NCBI GenBank assembly: GCA_030538475.1 | Contig: JAUNTX010000002.1 | Coordinates: forward strand, 62,001-126,000 | Reading direction: 5' to 3' | Source: Dermabacter sp. | GTDB taxonomy: Bacteria > Actinomycetota > Actinomycetes > Actinomycetales > Dermabacteraceae | DNA length: 64,000 nt | Part shown: positions 3,081 to 21,724 of the stretch, piece by piece | How positions within the stretch are numbered: position 1 is the stretch's first letter | How the letters are laid out: every line of letters starts with the position of its first letter | Translations under genes and position numbers: made by a program | The notes under the pieces: model-generated | Told to the model about the DNA's origin: nothing | What the model saw: only the letters and a program-made list of their open reading frames with translations | The model's database searches: none

Positions 3081-5519
3081 TCACATCACCCGGCGCGCCC
3101 CTCGCGCCTGCCCGTCGGCCAGCGCATGCCCGTGCAGGTCGGCACGCAGAAGGAAGGTGAGCGCGTTCGCGGCGCTGCGCTGCACTTCGGCCCGCGTGAG
3201 CCCGCCAGAACTGCCGAGCGAGTCGATCACGCCGGTATCGCGCACGTCGCCGCCGTGGACTTTCGAGCCGGGCATGAGCACATCGACCTGCGCGCGGACC
3301 CGGTAGGCGCTATCGCGCAGCGCGGGAAAGTGCGGGTCGCTCGCCATCTGCATCCACCAGTCGGTGATGACGAGGCCGGTGTAGCCCCATTCGCCGCGGA
3401 GGATCGTGGTCACGAGGTCGTAGTGGTAGTGCCCCCACACGCCGTTGATTTTGTTGTAGGAGGTCATGAGGGTGAGCGGGGCGGCCTCGCGGACCACGAT
3501 CTCGAAGCCGCGGAGGTAGATTTCGCGCAGCGCCCGCTCGGACACTCGGGCGTCCACGTGGATGCGGTTGAACTCCTGGTTGTTGGCGGCGAAGTGTTTG
3601 GGGCAGGCGGCCACGCCCCGCGATTGCACGCCGGCCACGATGGCGGCGCCCATGCGGCCCGTGAGCAGGGGATCTTCGGAGAAGTACTCGAAGTTCCTGC
3701 CGCACAGGGGGTCGCGCTGGATGTTCATGCCGGGGCTGAGCAGAATGTCCGAGCCCTTCGCGATCATCTCCTCGGCGTGGATCGCGGCGAGGTCCCGGAC
3801 GGCGGGGAGGTTCCAGGTGGAGGCGAGGCCGGTGCCGCAGGGAAGCAGGGAGGCAAAGGCCGCCACGCGCAGCCCGGAGGGTCCGTCGGTGGTGATGGCG
3901 GGCTCGATGCCGCGGGCGCGCAGCGCCTCGCTCACGCCGCCAAGCGCTCCGGCATTGCCCGCGACCCCGAGCGGAGAGTCCATGGTCGTGTCGCCGTAGG
4001 TGAGGTCCGCGAGTTCGGTGTCGCTCAGGGACGCGACGAACTCCTCGAGGCTCCCCTCGCCCGCGCGCACGGCGTCCCACGTGGGGGCCGCGCCGTCCCG
4101 GGCCGCGAACTCCTCGGGTAGGCGATCCAGGATGCGGCCCGCGAGGTCACGCGTTTCGAGCGGCACCGGCTCGGTGGCCACCCGGGGCGTCCCGTCGCTC
4201 GCCCGGCCGCGGACCATGCGCTCGAAGCCCGCTCCGGCCGGAACGGACGCGGCTTCCTCGCACTGGCGCACCAGCTGAAGCTCCGCCACGTCGATGCGGC
4301 CGGCCTCGCTGGCGCTGCGCGTATCCGGCCCCACGTGCACGCGGTACATGCCGGGCTCGAGCACGAAGGCGCTGCGGTGACCGGTCACGCCCGCGTCGTC
4401 GTAGGCGGCGCAATCGGCGAGGTCCACGGCCAGGCGCACCTCCGTGCTCTCGCCGGGGGCGAGGGTGCCCGTGCGGGCGAAGGCCGCGAGGTGGCGCATG
4501 GGCCGGGACAGCGCGCCGTCCGGCGCCTCAACATAGACCTGGACCACCTCGCTCGTCGGCAGATCTCCCGTGTTCGTGACCGTCGCGGCGAGGGTGGCCG
4601 TGAGACCGTCGGCCTCGAATTCCCGGCACTCGATCACCCGCGTGGAGTAGCCGAGCCCGTAGCCGAAGGGGTACTGGACGGCGCCCTGGGCGAAGGTCTC
4701 GAAGTAGCGGTAGCCCACGAAGATGTCTTCGCGGTACTCGCTGATGTCGGCTTCGCCGAAGGTAGGGGCCGACGGGTAGTCCCGGTACTCGCGCGCCACG
4801 GTGGCGGTGAGGCGCCCGCCGGGTTCGGCGCGGCCGGTCAGGATATCGGCCACGGCGCTGCCCGCTTCCATGCCACCCGCCCACGCGATGAGCAGGCCCG
4901 AGATCGGGTAGCGCTCGGCCCAGGACAGGTCGATGAGGTTGCCGGTGTTGACGATGACGAGGGTGCGGGCAAACGCGGCGGTGACGCGCTCAAGCAGGGA
5001 GGTTTCCTCGGGCGTCAGGTAGTAGGAGCCGGGGGCCAGCTGGGCGTCGCGATCCTCGCCGGCCGCGCGGCCGATCACCACGATGGCGAGGTCGTTGCGC
5101 GCGGCGGCCGCCTCGATCACGTCCCCGCTCACGGGCATTTCGGGGTAGTGGGTGGGCCACGCGCCCCATTCCTTCCCGGGGGCGGCCGGGTGTTGGGCGG
5201 AGAAGTCGGCGTAGAGCGCCGCGAGGTCGGCATCGACGTGGAGGTCCGGCTCGTCGGCGAGGGCTCCCGCGAGGGTGCTCTGGTACGGCGGGTTGACGTC
5301 TCCCCCGGAGCCGTAGCCGACGGGGATCCAGTCGAGCGCGGTGCGCCCGAACACCGCCACGCTCGTGCCGGGCGCGAGCGGAAGGATGCCGTCGTTGACG
5401 AGGAGGACGGAGCCCTGGGCGGCGAGCGCGCGGGCCTGGCGGGCGAGGGCGGGATCCACCCAGCGCGAGGCGTCGGCGTCGGCAGTGGTGCTGGCCTGGG
5501 AAAGCAGGTGCTGGCTCAT
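3081..5519 (-). CDS. Glycoside hydrolase family 3 beta-glucosidase, domain-permuted
   Basis: The 812-residue protein hydrolyses beta-linked glucosides in the GH3 family. The module order is reversed relative to most GH3 enzymes: the C-terminal-type sandwich comes first (GSVLLVNDGILPLAP near 36-50, GRAAGEDRDAQL, IAWAGGMEAGSAVADILTG), then a fibronectin-like region near 300-390, then the catalytic barrel (TTDGPSGLRVA, SPGMNIQRDPLCGRNFEYFSEDP, PKHFAANNQE) with the nucleophile Asp in LVITDWW near residue 720. Permuted GH3 enzymes are known, for example in Ruminococcus. There is no signal peptide, so it is probably cytoplasmic and acts on imported oligosaccharides. The ATG at 5519 has GAGGAG at good spacing. 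It is divergent from the sugar importer. Confidence 0.88.
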   Translation of the reverse strand: MSQHLLSQASTTADADASRWVDPALARQARALAAQGSVLLVNDGILPLAPGTSVAVFGRTALDWIPVGYGSGGDVNPPYQSTLAGALADEPDLHVDADLAALYADFSAQHPAAPGKEWGAWPTHYPEMPVSGDVIEAAAARNDLAIVVIGRAAGEDRDAQLAPGSYYLTPEETSLLERVTAAFARTLVIVNTGNLIDLSWAERYPISGLLIAWAGGMEAGSAVADILTGRAEPGGRLTATVAREYRDYPSAPTFGEADISEYREDIFVGYRYFETFAQGAVQYPFGYGLGYSTRVIECREFEADGLTATLAATVTNTGDLPTSEVVQVYVEAPDGALSRPMRHLAAFARTGTLAPGESTEVRLAVDLADCAAYDDAGVTGHRSAFVLEPGMYRVHVGPDTRSASEAGRIDVAELQLVRQCEEAASVPAGAGFERMVRGRASDGTPRVATEPVPLETRDLAGRILDRLPEEFAARDGAAPTWDAVRAGEGSLEEFVASLSDTELADLTYGDTTMDSPLGVAGNAGALGGVSEALRARGIEPAITTDGPSGLRVAAFASLLPCGTGLASTWNLPAVRDLAAIHAEEMIAKGSDILLSPGMNIQRDPLCGRNFEYFSEDPLLTGRMGAAIVAGVQSRGVAACPKHFAANNQEFNRIHVDARVSERALREIYLRGFEIVVREAAPLTLMTSYNKINGVWGHYHYDLVTTILRGEWGYTGLVITDWWMQMASDPHFPALRDSAYRVRAQVDVLMPGSKVHGGDVRDTGVIDSLGSSGGLTRAEVQRSAANALTFLLRADLHGHALADGQARGARRVM

Positions 5520-5584
5520 GATGCTCCTCGGTAATGCGGGTGATCGTGGACATGCGGGCGATCGTGGGCGCCCACTGCAGCGGC

Positions 5585-5612
5585 TTGCCACGATGGGCGG
5601 GAGGTGTATAGT
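5585..5612 (+). promoter_or_regulatory. Candidate sigma-70-type promoter of the sugar ABC operon
   Basis: TTGCCA at 5585-5590 and TATAGT at 5607-5612 are separated by 16 bp, close to the vegetative consensus. The predicted transcription start falls at about 5619-5621, immediately before the palindrome at 5626-5643, which is the usual geometry for repressor blockage. Confidence 0.55.
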
Positions 5613-5625
5613 TCTGAACATCCCC

Positions 5626-5643
5626 TCTGAGAACGTTCTCAGA
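5626..5643. promoter_or_regulatory. LacI-family operator (18-bp perfect palindrome)
   Basis: TCTGAGAACGTTCTCAGA is a perfect palindrome with the central CG step and GAGAACGTTCTC core typical of LacI-family operators. It lies just downstream of the -10 element and 35 bp before the binding-protein start. The LacI regulator at the end of the same operon is the obvious candidate to bind it. It is also in the divergent intergenic region of the GH3 gene, so it may control both directions. Confidence 0.75.
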
Positions 5644-5677
5644 ACCAGTGTACGGGACCGGAACGAAGGAGTTTCCC

Positions 5678-6937
5678 ATGAAAGTCACCCGACGCACCGC
5701 CCTCCAGGCCTCCCTCGCCGCGGGCCTTGGCGCGACCGCCCTCGCCGGATGCGGCGGCGGCAGCAGCTCGAGCGGAAAGACCGAGATCACTGTCGCCACC
5801 TTCAACGAGTTCGGCTACGAAGACCTCTACGCCACCTACATGGCCGAGAACCCCGACGTAGTCATCAAGGCAAAGAAGGCGGCCACGAGCGACGAGGCCC
5901 GGCAAAACCTCCTTACCGGGCTCGCCGCGAAATCCGGGCTCGCCGACATCGAGGCCATCGAAGTGAACTGGTGGGCCGAACTCAAGCAATACGCGACGGT
6001 ATTCGAGGACCTCGCGAGCCCGGAGGTCGAGGGCCGCTGGCTCGACTGGAAGACCGAAGCCGCGATGATCGACGGCAAGCTCCTCGGCTACGGCACCGAC
6101 ATTGGCCCCGAAGCCATCGCGTATCGCGGAGACCTCTTCACGACCGGCGGCCTGCCCGCCGACCGCGGTGATGTGAAGGCCCTGCTCGAAGGCGACTGGC
6201 GCACCTTCCTCGATGCGGGACGCTCCTTCACCCAGGCCTCCGGGATCCCCTTCTACGACAGCGCTGGCGGCACCTTCAACGGGATGATGCAGCAGCTCAC
6301 CCACCCCTACGAGGAAGAGGACGGCACCCCCATCCCACTCGGCGACAACGCACCGATCAAGGAGATCTACGACCTCCTCGTGGAGTACAAGGACATCTCC
6401 GCCGGGCTCGGCCAATGGTCCGAAGACTGGGTGGCCGCGTTCCAGACCGACGGCTTCGCCACGATGCTCTGCCCCGCATGGATGATGGGCCCGATCCAGG
6501 GCAACGCCGACGGCGTGGACGGCTGGGACATCGCCGACGTCTTCCCCGGCGGGGGCGGCAACTGGGGCGGCTCCTACCTCACCGTCCCCTCCCAGGGGAA
6601 GAACGTCGAGGCCGCCAAGAAGCTCGCCGCCTGGCTCACCGCACCCGAACAGCAGGTCGCCGCGTTCACCGCCGTGGGCGCCTTCCCCAGCCAGGTGGAA
6701 GCCCTCGAATCGCCCGAGGTCACGAGCGTCGTGGAGCCCTTCTTCAACGATGCCCCCGTCGGCCAGATCTACTCCGAGCGCGCCAAGGCCATCACCACCC
6801 AGCCCGCGCTCGGGCCGAACTTCTTCACGATCAACGGCCTCGTGGCCGATGCGATCACGCGATTCGATGTGGAAGGCATGGATCCGGCTGCCTCGTGGCA
6901 GGAAGCCCTCACGGCCTACAAGGAACTGGGTCTCTGA
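5678..6937 (+). CDS. Sugar ABC transporter, extracellular solute-binding lipoprotein
   Basis: The 419-residue protein starts with a twin-arginine-like signal (TRRTALQ) and a lipobox LAGC, so it is a membrane-anchored lipoprotein, possibly Tat-exported. The mature part follows the family 1 solute-binding pattern (ITVATFNEFGYED, GIPFYDSAGGTFNGMM, AAKKLAAWLTAPEQQ). GAAGGAG precedes the ATG at 5678. It is first in an operon with two permeases and a LacI regulator and is divergent from a beta-glucosidase, so beta-glucosides such as cellobiose or gentiobiose are likely ligands. No ATPase is encoded here; actinobacterial sugar importers commonly share an MsiK-type ATPase encoded elsewhere. Confidence 0.9.
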   Translation: MKVTRRTALQASLAAGLGATALAGCGGGSSSSGKTEITVATFNEFGYEDLYATYMAENPDVVIKAKKAATSDEARQNLLTGLAAKSGLADIEAIEVNWWAELKQYATVFEDLASPEVEGRWLDWKTEAAMIDGKLLGYGTDIGPEAIAYRGDLFTTGGLPADRGDVKALLEGDWRTFLDAGRSFTQASGIPFYDSAGGTFNGMMQQLTHPYEEEDGTPIPLGDNAPIKEIYDLLVEYKDISAGLGQWSEDWVAAFQTDGFATMLCPAWMMGPIQGNADGVDGWDIADVFPGGGGNWGGSYLTVPSQGKNVEAAKKLAAWLTAPEQQVAAFTAVGAFPSQVEALESPEVTSVVEPFFNDAPVGQIYSERAKAITTQPALGPNFFTINGLVADAITRFDVEGMDPAASWQEALTAYKELGL

Positions 6938-13264: not shown

Positions 13265-14640
13265 CGAGACTAAAGGGGCTCATCGCATTTGGAGGTTTAG
13301 GTGGGGTTTGAAGCCGCTTGATTCGAGGAGGCTGCGGGCGATGTCGTTGGTGAGGTTGCGGGAGCCGCGGGCAGAGCCGCGGAGATGCTCGAGACGGCCA
13401 TTGATCGCCTCGGTAGGTTCGTTGCTGGTGCCGGGACGGTCGAAGAACGCGAGGATATCGTCCCGTAGTTTGGCCAGGGCGCAGCCGAGCTTGCGGATTT
13501 CGGTAAGCCCGGACGGGACCTCGGTTCTGAGGAAGTCGACCATGTGGCCCATCGCGAACCTCGCGAGCTTCCGGTCGGGTTCACGGTAGGCCGCAACCAT
13601 CTGCTGATAGATGCCCCAGATCGCTTCCACAGCAGTTTGCTGATCGGTGGCGAACGGTCGCCCAGACGGGCCTACTGCTTCTAGGTCAGCAGCCCGGCGC
13701 CGGTCAGCAGCGTGCGGCGGCCTTGTCGAGCGGGTCGTTCTCGCTTCCTCGCCTGCCCAGCAGGCGTTGTTGAACACTTCGGCGGCACTCATCGACCGCG
13801 TTTGCGGCCAGGCGCACGACGTGAAACGGACCCATCACCGCAATGGCCGAGGGCAGTTCCTCGCTGATGGCGGTCTTGAAGCCCGTGAACCCGTCCATCG
13901 CGACAACCTCGATCCCGTCCCGCCAGCGTTTCGGACGTGCTGCCAGCCACGTCTTGAACGCCTGTTTCGAGCGTCCTTCGACCATGTCCAGCAGCCTGGA
14001 CGGCCCGGCTCCGTCCCTGATGGGGGTCAGATCGATGAGCACCGTGACGTAGGTGTCCCCACGCCGGGTGTACTGCCACACATGCTCATCAACGCCGAGG
14101 ACTTTGACGCCGTCGAACCGGGTCGAGCTATTGATCAGGGCGCGTGCGCCTTCGTCGAGGACCGCGTCGTTCGCGGTGTGTCACGCAACCCCCAGGCTCG
14201 CAACCACACGCGTGATGGTGAGGTGATCGACCATCAGAACCTTAAGGGCGTACAGAATCCCGGCCCTGGACAGATTTACTCGCTCGCCCACTGCCTTGCT
14301 GGTGTCTTCGCGCCACGAGCGGCCACATCCCGGGGCAGTGGTAGCGGCGGATCCGCAGTAGCAGCGTGCTCGGACGATGACTGGACGGAACATGCACCAA
14401 GCGCCGAGCCACCGACCCGAGCGAGAGAGCCTTGCCGCCACATCCCTGGCACCACGGATCAGGATTCTGCAGGCGGCATTCAACCAACGCGCGGTACGGG
14501 GACAACAACGGACCTGACCACGTTGACCGAGCTCGTCCAGCCGAGCAAACGTGGTCAGATCAGGGGCAGTGAAGGTAGCGCGAGGTATGTCGAGGCCTTC
14601 TGGATGAGGCGTGTAGGAACCCTCATCATCAGAGGACCTC
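13265..14640. mobile_element. Degraded ISL3-family insertion sequence
   Basis: The transposase remnant is flanked on the left by GGGGCTCATCGCATTTGGAG at about 13275-13294 and on the right by a minus-strand GGGTTCCTACACGCCTCATC near 14614-14633. These have only partial mutual similarity, so element boundaries are approximate. The element separates the ABC-2 exporter from the DUF6318 operon. Confidence 0.5.
13280..14524 (-). pseudogene. ISL3-family transposase, multiply frameshifted
   Basis: Fragments in three minus-strand frames read in order as one ISL3 transposase. An N-terminal zinc-ribbon part near 14242-14520 includes LTTFARLDELG and DPWCQGCGG. The continuation WREDTSKAV...LSRAG ends at a stop at 14181. 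The catalytic DDE core spans about 14150-13704 (GVDEHVWQYTRRGDTYVTVLIDLTPIRDG, GPSRLLDMVEGRSKQAFKTWL, VAMDGFTGFKTA). The C-terminal part is 13280-13792 (EAIWGIYQQMVAAYREPDRK, FFDRPGTSNEPTEAINGRLEHLRG). At least three frame changes make it non-functional. Terminal inverted repeats are not clear by eye. Confidence 0.85.
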
Positions 14641-14708: not shown

Positions 14709-15368
14709 CTAAAGCTCCTCATCCCGCCAGCTGACGCTTGTCAGAAGCCATCGCCCGTCCTCAAAGATGAGGAAGGCGCCCGCATGGATGATCTCCGCAG
14801 GATGGGTCTCGATATTTCCATCCTTGTCGAGGACGTCGATTTCACCATCAAGGTACGCATAATATACGTGGGTCAACCCTTCTCGGTAAAGAGCGGTCTC
14901 GCCGAGCTTTCGCGGCTCCAATGAGTACTTGGTGTAGAATTCACCTTCGCCGGAGGTGCTCTCGCGAACATCTTCAATGACACGCACGCAGACCTCGCAG
15001 TCAGATCGGGTGACACTCTCTAGAGGGCCCACATCTCCAGTCGCATACGCGTAATACTTTGCGTCAAAGTAGAATCGGACCGTCTGTTCGGCGCCCTCTG
15101 CACCCTCGGAGTCGATCCCCAGATAGTCCGCGCGATCGGGCGGCTGCATGCCTTTATTCTTGGCGGGCATGGCGTATCCACCATCGCTGGCGCTCCCACT
15201 GCCACTGCTGGACGCGCCATCCGCGTCCGATGCAGCCGATTCTCCCCCTCCTAACTGCCCAGTACAGGCGGCGAGAGCCAGTAATCCCACTAACGCCACC
15301 GCCGTGAACTTCTTTCTCCAGGACGTGCGCGCCATGTCAGCCGGGCGCGGCTTCGAGTCGCTACACAT
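14709..15368 (-). CDS. DUF6318-like lipoprotein, paralogue A
   Basis: The 219-residue predicted lipoprotein has a signal peptide with lipobox LAAC (near residue 34), a low-complexity Ser/Gly/Asp/Ala linker, and then a conserved domain: AMPAKNKGMQPPDRADYLGIDS, AEQTVRFYFDAKYYAYATGD, GPLESVTRSDCEVCVRVI with a CxxC pair, THVYYAYLDGE, and a terminal FEDGRWLLTSVSW. This matches the actinobacterial DUF6318 layout as I recall it; function is unknown. ATG 15368 has GGGGAG upstream and overlaps the stop of paralogue B by eight bases, so it is the last gene of a coupled operon. Confidence 0.75.
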   Translation of the reverse strand: MCSDSKPRPADMARTSWRKKFTAVALVGLLALAACTGQLGGGESAASDADGASSSGSGSASDGGYAMPAKNKGMQPPDRADYLGIDSEGAEGAEQTVRFYFDAKYYAYATGDVGPLESVTRSDCEVCVRVIEDVRESTSGEGEFYTKYSLEPRKLGETALYREGLTHVYYAYLDGEIDVLDKDGNIETHPAEIIHAGAFLIFEDGRWLLTSVSWRDEEL

Positions 15369-16068
15369 CAGAATTCTCCCCCCATACAAAATAGATTACT
15401 TGCCAACGGCCATCCTGAAATTCCAGTTCAATATCGGCATGCATATTCCTTCCTGGGTCCCCTTCAATCGTCCCGTCGCGTAGGCGCGTGCTATGTTCGC
15501 CTTCATAGTATGCATAATAGACGGCCCTCATGCCCCCGCCATATGGATCGTACTCATACATTTCCTGCGGATGGATGGAGTGCCCGATGTCATATACCCC
15601 ATAGACCCGAGTTCGAGCGAGAGTCGCATAGACAAAACTCTGACACTCCCCGCAGCGGTCACTCGATACGCTCTCCAGAGGCCCGGTGTCACCCGTCTCG
15701 AAACCGTAGTACATCGCATCAAGGAAGTACCGGGCGGTTTCCTGTGCACCCACATAGGCCGGGGATTCAATGCCTGGATAATGAGCTGGGTTGGGCTGAG
15801 TACGAGCCTCGTTTTCTGGCGGCATCGCGAACTCATCAGGCTCGTCGCTCCCGCCACCGTCGCTAGCGCTCGCGTCCACGCCACTGTCTGGCACTCCGCC
15901 CGCATCCGAAGACGCCCCGCTATCACTACCTTGCCCCGAGGACTCTTTCCCTCCGTCGGCGGTGCATGCCGCGAGACCCAGCACCACAATCGCTGCCACC
16001 GCAGCCAGGCGCCTGAGCCACCTGTCGTCGATCTGCTGATCCATCCCAGCCCTTCTCCCCTTCTTCAT
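15361..16068 (-). CDS. DUF6318-like lipoprotein, paralogue B
   Basis: The 235-residue protein has a signal peptide and lipobox LAAC, an acidic Ser/Asp/Gly linker and the DUF6318 core (PENEARTQPNPAHYPGIES, ETARYFLDAMYYGFETGD, GPLESVSSDRCGECQSF with the CxxC pair, AVYYAYYEGE, FQDGRWQVIYFVWG). ATG 16068 lies six bases after GGAAGG; a GTG six bases earlier and an ATG at 16044 are alternatives. A 70-nt stretch encoding the signal/linker (15902-15971) is nearly identical to that of paralogue D, which points to recent duplication or gene conversion. Confidence 0.75.
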   Translation of the reverse strand: MKKGRRAGMDQQIDDRWLRRLAAVAAIVVLGLAACTADGGKESSGQGSDSGASSDAGGVPDSGVDASASDGGGSDEPDEFAMPPENEARTQPNPAHYPGIESPAYVGAQETARYFLDAMYYGFETGDTGPLESVSSDRCGECQSFVYATLARTRVYGVYDIGHSIHPQEMYEYDPYGGGMRAVYYAYYEGEHSTRLRDGTIEGDPGRNMHADIELEFQDGRWQVIYFVWGENSDV

Positions 16069-16164
16069 GTCCACCCTTCCAGTTCTTCTATGGCTTCACG
16101 CGCTTGCCGACTCGCCCACGCTCCACCACGCGGGCTCCTTGCCCCTATCGACGTTGCTGCATCG

Positions 16165-16872
16165 CTACACATCGGTGTTACTCCCCCACTCGGCGTAGAG
16201 TACTTGCCAACGTCCATCAACTACCTTCAGATCAGCAACAGCATTCATGTTTCCACCCGAGTAGGTGCTCGTACTTCCATCGCTGAAAAGCCTTTCGCTC
16301 TCGCCCTCTCGATAGGCATAGTAGATCGTCCGCACGCCGGGACGAGTTGGCACATAATCCACTACTTCTTGAGGTTCTATCGAGTATGAGGTCAGGAAAG
16401 CACCCTGCTCTCTGGTGCGTGAGCGAATATCATCGACAGCTTCCAAGCACGGCTTGCAATTCTTGTGAGAAACACTTTCGAGTGGCGCAGTATCCCCCGT
16501 AGCGTACCCGTAGTACCGCGCATCGATGAAGAATCGCATCGCCTGTTCGGCACCTTCGTCAGACTCCGAGTCCATGCCGGGGTAGTTGACCGGATCTGGC
16601 GACGCCATACCCTTGTTCTGGGGCGGTATTGCAAACCCCACGGCTTCTGTCCCCTCATCGCCGTTGCCTGCGTCAGCTCCGCCATTGTCGGAAGGCTGTC
16701 CGCTGGGACCAAACTTCTTCTCTTGGGCAATCTGGATCTCCGACTTTTCCGGCTCTTCTTCCTTGCTGCACGCCGTGAGTCCCAGCGTTGCAATCGCTAC
16801 CGCCGCTGCCAGACGCCTCGCCCAACTGCCTCGGTTGAGCAGGTGGCCTGCTGTGAACTGTTGATTGTCCAT
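16165..16872 (-). CDS. DUF6318-like lipoprotein, paralogue C
   Basis: The 235-residue protein has a signal peptide and lipobox LTAC, followed by a charged EEEPEKSEIQIAQEKKFG segment and a Gly/Asn/Asp-rich linker, then the same core: AIPPQNKGMASPDPVNYPGMDS, EQAMRFFIDARYYGYATGD, APLESVSHKNCKPCLEAV with CxxC, RTIYYAYREGE, DGRWQVLYAEWG. AGGAGG upstream fixes ATG 16872; a longer ORF running to 17130 would overlap the PKD-like gene and lacks support. The sequence just after its stop (ATGTGTAGCGA) repeats the start of paralogue A, a trace of tandem duplication. Confidence 0.75.
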   Translation of the reverse strand: MDNQQFTAGHLLNRGSWARRLAAAVAIATLGLTACSKEEEPEKSEIQIAQEKKFGPSGQPSDNGGADAGNGDEGTEAVGFAIPPQNKGMASPDPVNYPGMDSESDEGAEQAMRFFIDARYYGYATGDTAPLESVSHKNCKPCLEAVDDIRSRTREQGAFLTSYSIEPQEVVDYVPTRPGVRTIYYAYREGESERLFSDGSTSTYSGGNMNAVADLKVVDGRWQVLYAEWGSNTDV

Positions 16873-16961
16873 CTTTCCCCTCCTGGCGATTGTCGGACCG
16901 GCGGCTCGGCGCCGCGCAGCCTCCACGCCGACTGCGATCTTGCCCCAACTTGACGCTCGTC

Positions 16962-18017
16962 CTACCGTCGCTTCTTCTTCGTGTTCTGTCCCGGGTACTT
17001 CAGGGTCGTCTTCTTCGCCTTCGGGTTGGGTTTGCCGAGGGTCTCTTCGGTGCGTTCGGGGATCTCGTTCAATGCCGGATCCACCGGCCCGCTCACCAGG
17101 CGTGCTTTCATGACGTTGGCATACAGCCACCGAGGCTCGGAGGTGACGTGGATGGTGCCGTCGATCGGCACGAAGGGGCCTCCGGCCACGGAGTACTCGC
17201 CGGCGAACTCGGTGGTCAGCGAGAGTTCGTACCAGCCTTCATTGCGGTACCGCATCGAAATATCCCGCTCCGGCCACGGCCTGCCAGCGAACGACGTGGT
17301 CAATTCAGTACCGTCACCGAACGTCCACACGTACTTAATCGGCGTCGCTCGAATCACCACGTCCTGACCCAGCAGTTCCGTGTGGAGTTCCTGCACTCGG
17401 CGCTCAGCCCACACGATCACGTCCATACTGGTCGGGATCTGCATCGCCACCGGCGGCCCCAAATGCGCCACCAGAGGCTCCACACCCAGGGACGCAAACT
17501 CCGTCTCGGTGACCACGACGGGCGCAGCCTCGATGCCACCAGCACTACCGGTACCGGGCCTCACGCACGAGGTGCGCGCCCACGTCCCGGTCCGCTGTCC
17601 GGTTGCCCCATCCACCCGATGACTCACCACAGCTTGCGAACCGTCACCGAGGGCTATGTTCAACGCAGTGCACACATGGGAGAACCCCAGGCACACCACA
17701 GTCTCGGCAGTCTCCTTGTCCGGATCATCTTGCCCCTTGTATATCCCGCGACAGCCCCGCTCCGGATCCGACCAAGGCGCCGACACCGTCTGCACGGCAT
17801 TCTTCACACGGTACGTGCCGGAACTATTGGTGCTAGAGTTCGAGCCATTAGTCCCGTTCGTCGCCGAGGAATCCTGACGCGCGGCACCAAACCCATTACC
17901 CGATTCATTAGCGCTACCGACCGTATCGGCGTTCTCATTCGTCATTCCTGGACTCATGGGCATAACAAACCCGTAAACGAATAGAGCAATGATCGAAAAA
18001 CCGACGCTACGACTCAT
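16962..18017 (-). CDS. Secreted or membrane-tethered PKD-like protein within the DUF6318 operon
   Basis: The 351-residue protein begins with a hydrophobic signal or anchor (about residues 4-22, VGFSIIALFVYGFVMP), then an Asn/Ser/Thr-rich low-complexity linker (near 30-70). A cysteine-bearing central region follows (CRG, CLGFSHVC, SCVRPG), then a PKD-like beta-sandwich with the motif KYVWTFGDGTELTTSF near 240, and a basic C-terminus (GQNTKKKRR). PKD domains usually mediate extracellular binding. I prefer ATG 18017, with GGGGGA nine bases upstream, over TTG 18023. The start overlaps the stop of paralogue D. It does not resemble a known enzyme. Confidence 0.72.
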   Translation of the reverse strand: MSRSVGFSIIALFVYGFVMPMSPGMTNENADTVGSANESGNGFGAARQDSSATNGTNGSNSSTNSSGTYRVKNAVQTVSAPWSDPERGCRGIYKGQDDPDKETAETVVCLGFSHVCTALNIALGDGSQAVVSHRVDGATGQRTGTWARTSCVRPGTGSAGGIEAAPVVVTETEFASLGVEPLVAHLGPPVAMQIPTSMDVIVWAERRVQELHTELLGQDVVIRATPIKYVWTFGDGTELTTSFAGRPWPERDISMRYRNEGWYELSLTTEFAGEYSVAGGPFVPIDGTIHVTSEPRWLYANVMKARLVSGPVDPALNEIPERTEETLGKPNPKAKKTTLKYPGQNTKKKRR

Positions 18018-18696
18018 TGTCAACCATCCCCCAACCCGCGTCTACTATTCGCCAGCCTTCATCCTGGAACTTGAGATCGGCGAAGGCGTGCATATTACGT
18101 CCCTCATGCGACTCTGAGGGGCGATCTTTGAACCGTCTTTCCGTGGGACCTTCATAGAAGGCGTAATACACTGTTGTCAGCCCAGCCTCATCCGGAGTTA
18201 CTAGATACAGTTCCTGGATCTCGATGGCGTACCCAACGATGAACGATTCTTCCGTTTGAGTGCGTTCATGAATTTTATTTATCGCTTCACTACATACAGT
18301 GCAATCGGTGGTGGAAACACTTTCAAGTGGGACGGTGTCACCGGTGGCGTGCCCGTAATATAGGGCATCGATAAAGAACCGTGTTGCCTGCTTGGCCCCC
18401 TCGTCATTCTGCAGTTCCATCCCTGGGTAGTTGGCCGGGTCAGGTGGTTGGAGTGCTTCGTTCTCGGTAGGCATTGCGAACTCGTCAGGCTCCTCGTTTC
18501 CGCCGCCGTCTATTCCGCCACCATCGGATGCTCCACCGGCATCCGAGGACGCCCCGCTATCACTACCTTGCCCCGAGGACTCTTTCTCTCCGTCGGCGGT
18601 GCACGCCGTGAGCCCCAACGCCGCAATCGCCACCACCGCAGCCAGACGCTTTGCCCACACTCCCCGCGTCTTCCGCCCCATGTTCGTCGTCGCCAT
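18007..18696 (-). CDS. DUF6318-like lipoprotein, paralogue D (first gene of the operon)
   Basis: The 229-residue lipoprotein has a basic start, hydrophobic segment and lipobox LTAC (near 32), an acidic Gly/Ser/Asp linker and the DUF6318 core (TENEALQPPDPANYPGMEL, KQATRFFIDALYYGHATGD, VPLESVSTTDCTVCSEAI with CxxC, TTVYYAFYEGP, FQDEGWRIVDAGWG). It is the most upstream gene of the five-gene minus-strand operon and overlaps the PKD-like gene by 11 bases. GGAG is the nearest ribosome site, at somewhat long spacing. Confidence 0.75.
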   Translation of the reverse strand: MATTNMGRKTRGVWAKRLAAVVAIAALGLTACTADGEKESSGQGSDSGASSDAGGASDGGGIDGGGNEEPDEFAMPTENEALQPPDPANYPGMELQNDEGAKQATRFFIDALYYGHATGDTVPLESVSTTDCTVCSEAINKIHERTQTEESFIVGYAIEIQELYLVTPDEAGLTTVYYAFYEGPTERRFKDRPSESHEGRNMHAFADLKFQDEGWRIVDAGWGMVDNES

Positions 18697-18978
18697 CTAC
18701 ATCCAGCTCCACCCTTGCGCCCCGCGCCAGCCGCGGAACTCGTGCTCACAGCGTAAGCAATCTCCAGAGTGACCGCCAGCACCAAGGGCCCATTGTGGAT
18801 AACCTGCGCACAATCTCGACCTGGCAACACCTCGGCACGCAGAAAGGTCCCGGAACACCCGCGGAACCCATCACATTCGGGCAGAGGAGAGTCTCCGGTG
18901 CGGGACAGCGTTCCGAGCGGCGCCACGCATGGGCCGCACCGGACAGGTCATCGCCGAACGCACCATCGCCCCACACAT
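18697..18978. other. Intergenic region upstream of the DUF6318 operon
   Basis: No convincing gene is seen. On the minus strand this is the presumed promoter region of the lipoprotein operon, but no clear -35/-10 pair stands out. It contains one consensus DnaA-type nonamer (TGTGGATAA, 18794-18802), which alone has no weight. Confidence 0.4.
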
Positions 18979-19015: not shown

Positions 19016-19026
19016 ACTTCACAATG

Positions 19027-19116
19027 CGGAGACGAGAGGATTTGAACCTCCGAGGCGACTCATCGTCACCTACTCCCTTAGCAGGGGAGCGCATTCGGCC
19101 GCTCTGCCACGTCTCC
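19027..19116 (-). tRNA. tRNA-Ser(GCT)
   Basis: The 90-nt gene folds as a class II tRNA with acceptor GGAGACG/CGTCTCC, an anticodon loop CTGCTAA giving GCT (serine AGC/AGU), a long variable arm and the TTCAAAT T-loop. No CCA is encoded. Its 3' end faces the lower-GC accessory region 10011-19026, a common integration side for genomic islands. Confidence 0.95.
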
Positions 19117-21632: not shown

Positions 21633-21636
21633 TGGG

Positions 21637-21724
21637 CGGAGAGTAAGGGATTTGAACCCTTGGTGCAGGGTTACTGCACAACGGTTTTCAAGACCGTCAC
21701 ATTCGGCCGCTCTGTCAACTCTCC
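21637..21724 (-). tRNA. tRNA-Ser(TGA)
   Basis: The 88-nt class II tRNA has acceptor GGAGAGT/ACTCTCC, anticodon loop CTTGAAA giving TGA (serine UCA-family codons), a long variable arm and the TTCAAAT T-loop. It lies just downstream of the HAD and serS genes, a sensible serine neighbourhood. Confidence 0.95.

Follow-up and report, generated by a model that had tools for sequence, protein, structure and literature searches.

The DNA considered here is a stretch of 64,000 nucleotides from Dermabacter sp. (assembly GCA_030538475.1, contig JAUNTX010000002.1, positions 62,001 to 126,000; the whole stretch is called the window, and its own numbering is used below), in which five minus-strand genes spanning 14709-18696 encode four lipoproteins of the DUF6318 family and one secreted protein with a PKD fold. 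An earlier note, made from the sequence alone, had described four tandem lipoproteins around one PKD-like protein. The gene order it gave (D, PKD, C, B, A) is confirmed in the sequence, but the conserved unit turns out to be one DUF6318 gene plus one PKD gene, and genes C, B and A represent a local expansion, of a kind that a few other genomes also show. The genes are as follows:

18007-18696, minus strand: gene D, DUF6318 lipoprotein, first in the unit and paired partner of the PKD protein (PF19843, 55.6 bits; NTF2-like model)
16962-18017, minus strand: secreted PKD-fold protein, consisting of a signal peptide, a low-complexity linker, a Cys-bearing alpha/beta domain, a PKD domain and a basic tail
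16165-16872, minus strand: gene C, DUF6318 lipoprotein without a PKD partner of its own (PF19843, 54.8 bits)
15361-16068, minus strand: gene B, DUF6318 lipoprotein without a PKD partner of its own (PF19843, 41.4 bits)
14709-15368, minus strand: gene A, DUF6318 lipoprotein without a PKD partner of its own (PF19843, 46.4 bits)

The likely starts are 18696 for D and the ATG codons at 18017 (PKD), 16872 (C, preceded by AGGAGG), 16068 (B) and 15368 (A). To call all five genes coupled was slightly too strong: the PKD start overlaps the stop of D by 11 nt and the start of A overlaps the stop of B, but PKD-C and C-B are each parted by about 90 bp. No PKD remnants were found in the window 3′ of C, B or A.

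The pairing of DUF6318 with PKD is a solid computational result. In the Dermabacteraceae a DUF6318 gene lies immediately upstream of 57 of the 64 PKD matches (most of the seven unpaired matches are contig ends or fragments), and in the order outside the family, where DUF6318 is detectable, PKD follows it in 89/94 cases; the earlier note had set this adjacency beforehand as one of two tests of its reading (the other being conservation of the CxxC, see below), and its reading passes both. Across the order sample, PKD is present in 114 of 149 genomes and 48 of 65 genera, and DUF6318 was detected in 90 of the 149; in Brevibacterium the DUF6318 position is occupied by a diverged lipoprotein without the CxxC motif described below.

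The window's own genome (G000, 2.53 Mb) has ten genes for DUF6318 and four for PKD, each of the latter directly behind one of the former, i.e. four DUF6318-PKD units. Extra DUF6318 genes come after PKD in three of these, namely three genes at the window unit and a single one at each of two others. Comparable tandem arrays occur in G100, G129 and G155. The tenth DUF6318 gene (L016, 8145-8744, minus strand) is lone and divergent and has the CxxC but no lipobox cysteine; such a gene is also found in 3/3 of the same-genus relatives searched (L066, L068, L069). One DUF6318-PKD unit (L014) has a DUF3375 gene directly upstream (5078-6598), and the usual Wadjet-type companions of DUF3375 (DUF4194/MksE and an SMC-like ATPase) are found at a distance of about 17 kb (L303, 1635-3101, contig C9), where they too stand behind a TTATCCACA box of the kind discussed below.

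With respect to a mobile origin, there was no phage match to PKD, its plasmid matches were three Arthrobacter plasmid records only, and DUF6318 had no plasmid match. Clustering of the flanks gave several chromosomal contexts rather than a single mobile element. The literature searched contained no mention of DUF6318 and nothing on Brachybacterium together with a PKD domain.

Protein families and modelled folds

All four lipoproteins exceed the curated Pfam cut-off for PF19843 (23.8 bits) with 41-56 bits and have lipoboxes (LTAC/LAAC), as the earlier note had proposed. DUF6318 models as an NTF2-like domain of helices and a curved beta-sheet cone (residues 75-225; predicted local distance difference test score, pLDDT, about 97), whose best structural match is the ARC6 intermembrane domain (Z 13.2 over 126 residues, root-mean-square deviation 2.4), with many NTF2-like structures matching above Z 10. 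Judged by this predicted fold, DUF6318 belongs to the NTF2-like superfamily, although a shared fold says nothing on function. In the model, the CxxC comes after the first helix, where the second long helix begins. It is invariant in 24 aligned sequences and its conservation holds in a broad alignment, where 75 of 81 full-length paired copies have it; the six exceptions are all Rothia loci (L115, L117, L119, L121, L125 and L133), in which the PKD N-region has two to three cysteines rather than the usual four or more. This pattern hints that cysteines in one protein may be linked to those in the other.

The PKD protein of the window scores 20.8 bits against PF00801, i.e. below the cut-off of 23.5; order-level homologues pass it (28.6, 27.1 and 28.4 bits), and the model matches ColG PKD domains at Z 8.5-8.7 (VIA-align). 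In the model, a disordered stretch of about 72 residues precedes a small alpha/beta domain, in which cysteines are conserved, and the PKD domain; a Foldseek search with the whole model gave no significant match, probably owing to the disordered N-terminal part. The basic tail described in the earlier note is real, but this Lys/Arg tail is confined to the genus of the window (Brachybacterium copies end in ...DPEATHREI).

The hypervariable block

The paired genes can be divided into a variable core and two constant arms:

18304-18804, minus strand: constant 5′ arm with the promoter, signal peptide, linker and first helix of DUF6318
17532-18303, minus strand: hypervariable core, limits approximate (synonymous divergence, orthologous islands and family-wide lower G+C content at third codon positions, GC3)
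16962-17531, minus strand: constant 3′ arm with the PKD domain and tail, 190 residues (nonsynonymous and synonymous divergence, dN and dS, between the four units)

Hypervariability of this locus is shown by computation and is solid. The core runs from the CxxC to the end of DUF6318 in gene D and takes in the signal peptide, linker and N-domain of the PKD protein; a block straddling the DUF6318/PKD junction is likewise found in Dermabacteraceae, Micrococcaceae, Brevibacterium and Kineosporia. It amounts to about 0.45-1.2 kb of unalignable sequence between flanks and arms that are up to 92-94% identical. Specifically, between the four units of G000 the last 190 PKD residues are almost unchanged as protein, with a dN of about 0.002-0.011 (typically near 0.005) and a dS of 0.36-0.56, and the second half of DUF6318 together with the PKD leader and N-region has a dN of 0.2-1.5 and a dS that is mostly much higher or saturated. 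Same-genome copies in Brachybacterium (G023, G036) repeat this, with proportions of synonymous differences (pS) of mostly 0.01-0.3 in the arms and 0.6-0.9 in the core, where the nonsynonymous proportion (pN) is 0.4-0.6.

The most telling comparison, that of orthologous loci in sister species, gives the same picture. Arthrobacter MYb213 and Glutamicibacter ardleyensis align over 10 kb at 92-94% identity, interrupted in a single stretch (-1355 to -392, counted from the PKD stop). As proteins, their outer ends are almost identical (the first 70 residues in DUF6318, the last ~130 in PKD), and what lies between has about a quarter to a third identity. Two Brachybacterium loci (L084/L087) are 88-90% identical with a gap from -1429 to -670 of the PKD stop, a second Brachybacterium pair loses alignment from -1455 to -799, and orthologous pairs from Kineosporia, Sinomonas and Brevibacterium show a like pattern. 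In addition, GC3 is lower in the core than in the PKD arm in 46/46 family loci, and the nearest neighbours by the C-terminal half of DUF6318 agree with those by the PKD domain in 10 of the 46. The unalignable core of orthologous loci, its low GC3 and this poor agreement of neighbours all suggest that the block is replaced by recombination between the conserved arms. The ‘variable display’ of the earlier note is thereby supported and sharpened to a block across two genes, which goes beyond what that note had claimed.

Promoter box and Tad pilus genes

Two elements are found upstream of the operon:

18794-18802, minus strand: DnaA-type box TTATCCACA (present at 4/4 units of G000)
18750-18755, minus strand: -10-like element of the form TAnnnT (TACGCT), 38 nt behind the box (spacing statistics)

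The upstream regions of the four G000 units share about 110 bp starting with TTRTCCACA. This exact box is found upstream of 44 of 75 unique loci as against 10 of 1327 control windows (0.75%; Fisher 4e-53), and TAnnnT follows 37-39 nt after it in 31 of 34 forward boxes (shuffles: mean 0.68, maximum 4 in 300); some Micrococcaceae have the box in reverse orientation and closer to the -10. There are 31 boxes in G000 overall, four of them at the DUF6318-PKD units, and the complete pattern of box, 38±1 nt and -10 marks 3-8 promoters per Dermabacteraceae genome and near none in a reversed control. The promoter signature of the units is solid. TTRTCCACA equals the published high-affinity DnaA box, which is TTGTCCACA in Mycobacterium tuberculosis and Streptomyces coelicolor and TTATCCACA in Escherichia coli (PMC4285127); candidate readers, going by the sequence, are DnaA or another binder such as the HTH_17 protein introduced below.

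In six Brachybacterium genomes the Tad operon gene cpaF stands behind the same phased promoter, and order-wide the box lies upstream of cpaF in exact form in 19/30 cases (G000 among them, at about -105) and with at most one mismatch in 27/30. The pair itself is linked to tad genes in two lineages: the G174 operon runs cpaF, tadB, tadC, tadE, an unknown gene, tad, DUF6318 and PKD, with the pair as its last genes, and in G074 and G057, both of the same genus, the pair and cpaF are neighbours in divergent orientation. In G000 a box also stands between SAF (CpaB-like)/ParA-type (TadZ-like) genes and an HTH_17 gene, a locus that is the counterpart of the Mlut_14650/14660 arrangement of Micrococcus luteus, in which mutations affect both transformation and the expression of comEA/EC (PMC8467076). 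Transformation of this species requires Tad pili (PMC4322843; PMC6916266); this role of actinobacterial Tad pili is established there, with the upstream regulation unidentified (PMC12849477). The HTH_17 protein is a candidate for reading the box. Neither the box promoter nor the Tad link had been foreseen in the earlier note, and we infer with good support that DUF6318-PKD belongs to the Tad pilus system.

The SAF/HTH_17 interval of G000 (L287, C3:146600-149700, about 1540-1570) has two box-like sites in all, one exact and one mismatched; a one-mismatch variant, TTRTCCCCA, lies about 60 bp upstream of comEA-like open reading frames in four Dermabacteraceae genomes (L321, L336, L324, L326); and DUF222/HNH endonuclease-like genes of Brachybacterium repeatedly have the phased box (L227 and L231 by PF02720; L228, L236, L238 and L241 by eye). 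The shared promoter suggests that cpaF, DUF6318-PKD and the DUF222/HNH genes may form a small regulon. As regards the surroundings of the operon, gene A is closely followed by a broken insertion element (13280-14081, minus strand), in which two adjoining frames match consecutive segments of an ISL3-family transposase (DDE_Tnp_ISL3), and two tRNA-Ser genes (GCT and TGA) lie close upstream (19026-19116 and 21635-21724, minus strand).

Possible role, alternatives and known systems

The five window genes may be understood as the expanded form of a two-gene unit that is conserved in actinobacteria, in which a membrane-anchored NTF2-like lipoprotein (DUF6318) would partner, possibly in a complex, a secreted PKD-domain protein. 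Recombination between the arms would swap the outer part of DUF6318 along with the front of the PKD protein (its leader, its linker and, in many cases, its N-domain), leaving unchanged the PKD domain and the end that carries the promoter and anchor. The pair seems to be co-expressed with the Tad (Flp) pilus, the promoters of both having the box at the same spacing from the -10, and it probably serves as an exchangeable, exposed surface accessory of the pilus in adhesion or DNA uptake, a reading that we regard as evenly poised. Its faces would most likely vary in order to evade pilus-directed phages or competitors, or to alter binding, and the extra copies C, B and A would add alleles. A broader proposal, namely that a recombination-swapped module of NTF2-like lipoprotein and PKD protein customises actinobacterial Tad (competence/adhesion) pili across the order, from a small DnaA-box regulon that may be read by DnaA or an HTH_17 competence regulator, is put forward more tentatively, as somewhat less probable than this.

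Several observations weigh against the pilus accessory. Neither protein is a pilin: A-D and PKD have no TadE/TadF/TadG match (PF07811/PF13400) at E up to 1, and have a lipobox or, in PKD, a signal peptide instead of a pilin-type N-terminus. In most genomes, G000 included, the pair is not beside tad genes, and the co-occurrence of PKD and cpaF (both in 99-106 and neither in 20-22 of 149 genomes), which is in favour of the link, is uncorrected for kinship. The exact box is missing at the same-genus loci L017, L018 and L047 and at about a third of Dermabacteraceae loci, none was found in the upstream windows examined of comEA/EC, and the phased box also precedes gyrB and DUF222/HNH genes, i.e. 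the promoter class is wider than tad. Since one genome was sampled per species, allelic variation within species is not visible. The box at gyrB and DUF222/HNH genes and the distance of most loci from tad genes favour a surface pair in an arms race (phage adsorption, host immunity, competitors) with no tie to Tad, the box being a general DnaA- or growth-linked promoter class, and the hypervariable low-GC3 core between fixed arms is also in its favour. However, the position of the pair within the tad operon or beside cpaF in the two lineages above, and phased promoters that are few per genome and repeatedly include cpaF, speak against it, and we consider it somewhat unlikely.

It is distinctly less probable that the locus is an effector-immunity system, with PKD carrying a variable toxic N-domain, DUF6318 as the matched immunity protein and C, B and A as orphan immunity genes. 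Known immunity proteins include some with an NTF2 fold and one family of lipoproteins (PMC3482391), the unpaired extra DUF6318 genes resemble orphan immunity arrays and the variable part covers both genes. Against this, once the arms are accounted for, variation in the C-terminal half of DUF6318 is not matched by variation in the PKD N-domain (partial rho -0.14, with distances that are partly saturated, which limits the test), which argues against strict cognate pairs; indeed, paralogues in G023 and G036 have PKD N-domains that are 96-98% identical and DUF6318 C-terminal halves that are 17-24% identical. Moreover, no recognisable toxin or defence match beyond DUF6318/PKD was found in Pfam, PADLOC or PHROGs, which leaves some room for a novel toxin, and across the order most genomes have a single copy. 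Fast neutral drift of unconstrained segments, combined with ordinary gene conversion of the ends between paralogues, would arguably suit the low-complexity linker and signal peptide of PKD, where drift is expected, and gene conversion of arms is plausible. Yet synonymous sites are saturated in the core and not in the arms or flanks, even in single-copy orthologous loci with 84-94% identical flanks, and the core retains the CxxC, a Trp and a confidently modelled fold; this explanation is highly improbable.

With these results, a family without a described function becomes a defined hypervariable locus in about three quarters of the sampled genomes of the order, and a testable regulatory signature ties DUF6318-PKD to Tad pili. 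If the pilus reading is true, it would (i) explain how monoderm Tad pili are customised, (ii) offer typing targets and candidate phage receptors and (iii) provide a candidate competence regulon.

Polymorphic toxin-immunity loci (PMC3482391) likewise have a variable segment between conserved arms, orphan copies and NTF2-fold immunity proteins, but they vary at the C-terminus, whereas DUF6318-PKD varies at the gene junction, with neither a toxin domain nor matched co-variation found. Going by their descriptions, recombination-variable lipoproteins and antigens such as those of Borrelia (PMC11389397, PMC4534519) also combine lipoprotein diversity by recombination with conserved ends; the present case differs in concerning mostly environmental or commensal actinobacteria, a two-gene block and one or few loci. 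To the actinobacterial Tad/Flp pilus (Micrococcus luteus, Bifidobacterium breve) the pair is related by its box promoter, its site in the tad operon of G174 and its adjacency in G074/G057, although the papers searched mention no PKD or lipoprotein genes in Micrococcus luteus tad clusters and the pair is usually unlinked. A Tad pilus customised by variable exposed domains, as proposed here, has a parallel in the interchangeable minor pilins at the Kil Tad pilus tips of Myxococcus xanthus (PMC12075869), which are TadEFG-like, whereas DUF6318/PKD is a lipoprotein and a secreted protein without a TadE/TadG match. With PKD domain proteins (PF00801/PF18911), the PKD protein has in common the fold, the GDG motif and the similarity to ColG, and it differs from them in being small and secreted, with a variable Cys-bearing N-region and a tie to DUF6318. 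To the DUF6318 family (PF19843) itself, of which all four lipoproteins are members by the curated cut-off, the hypervariability, the NTF2-like fold, the PKD pairing and the promoter type are added here.

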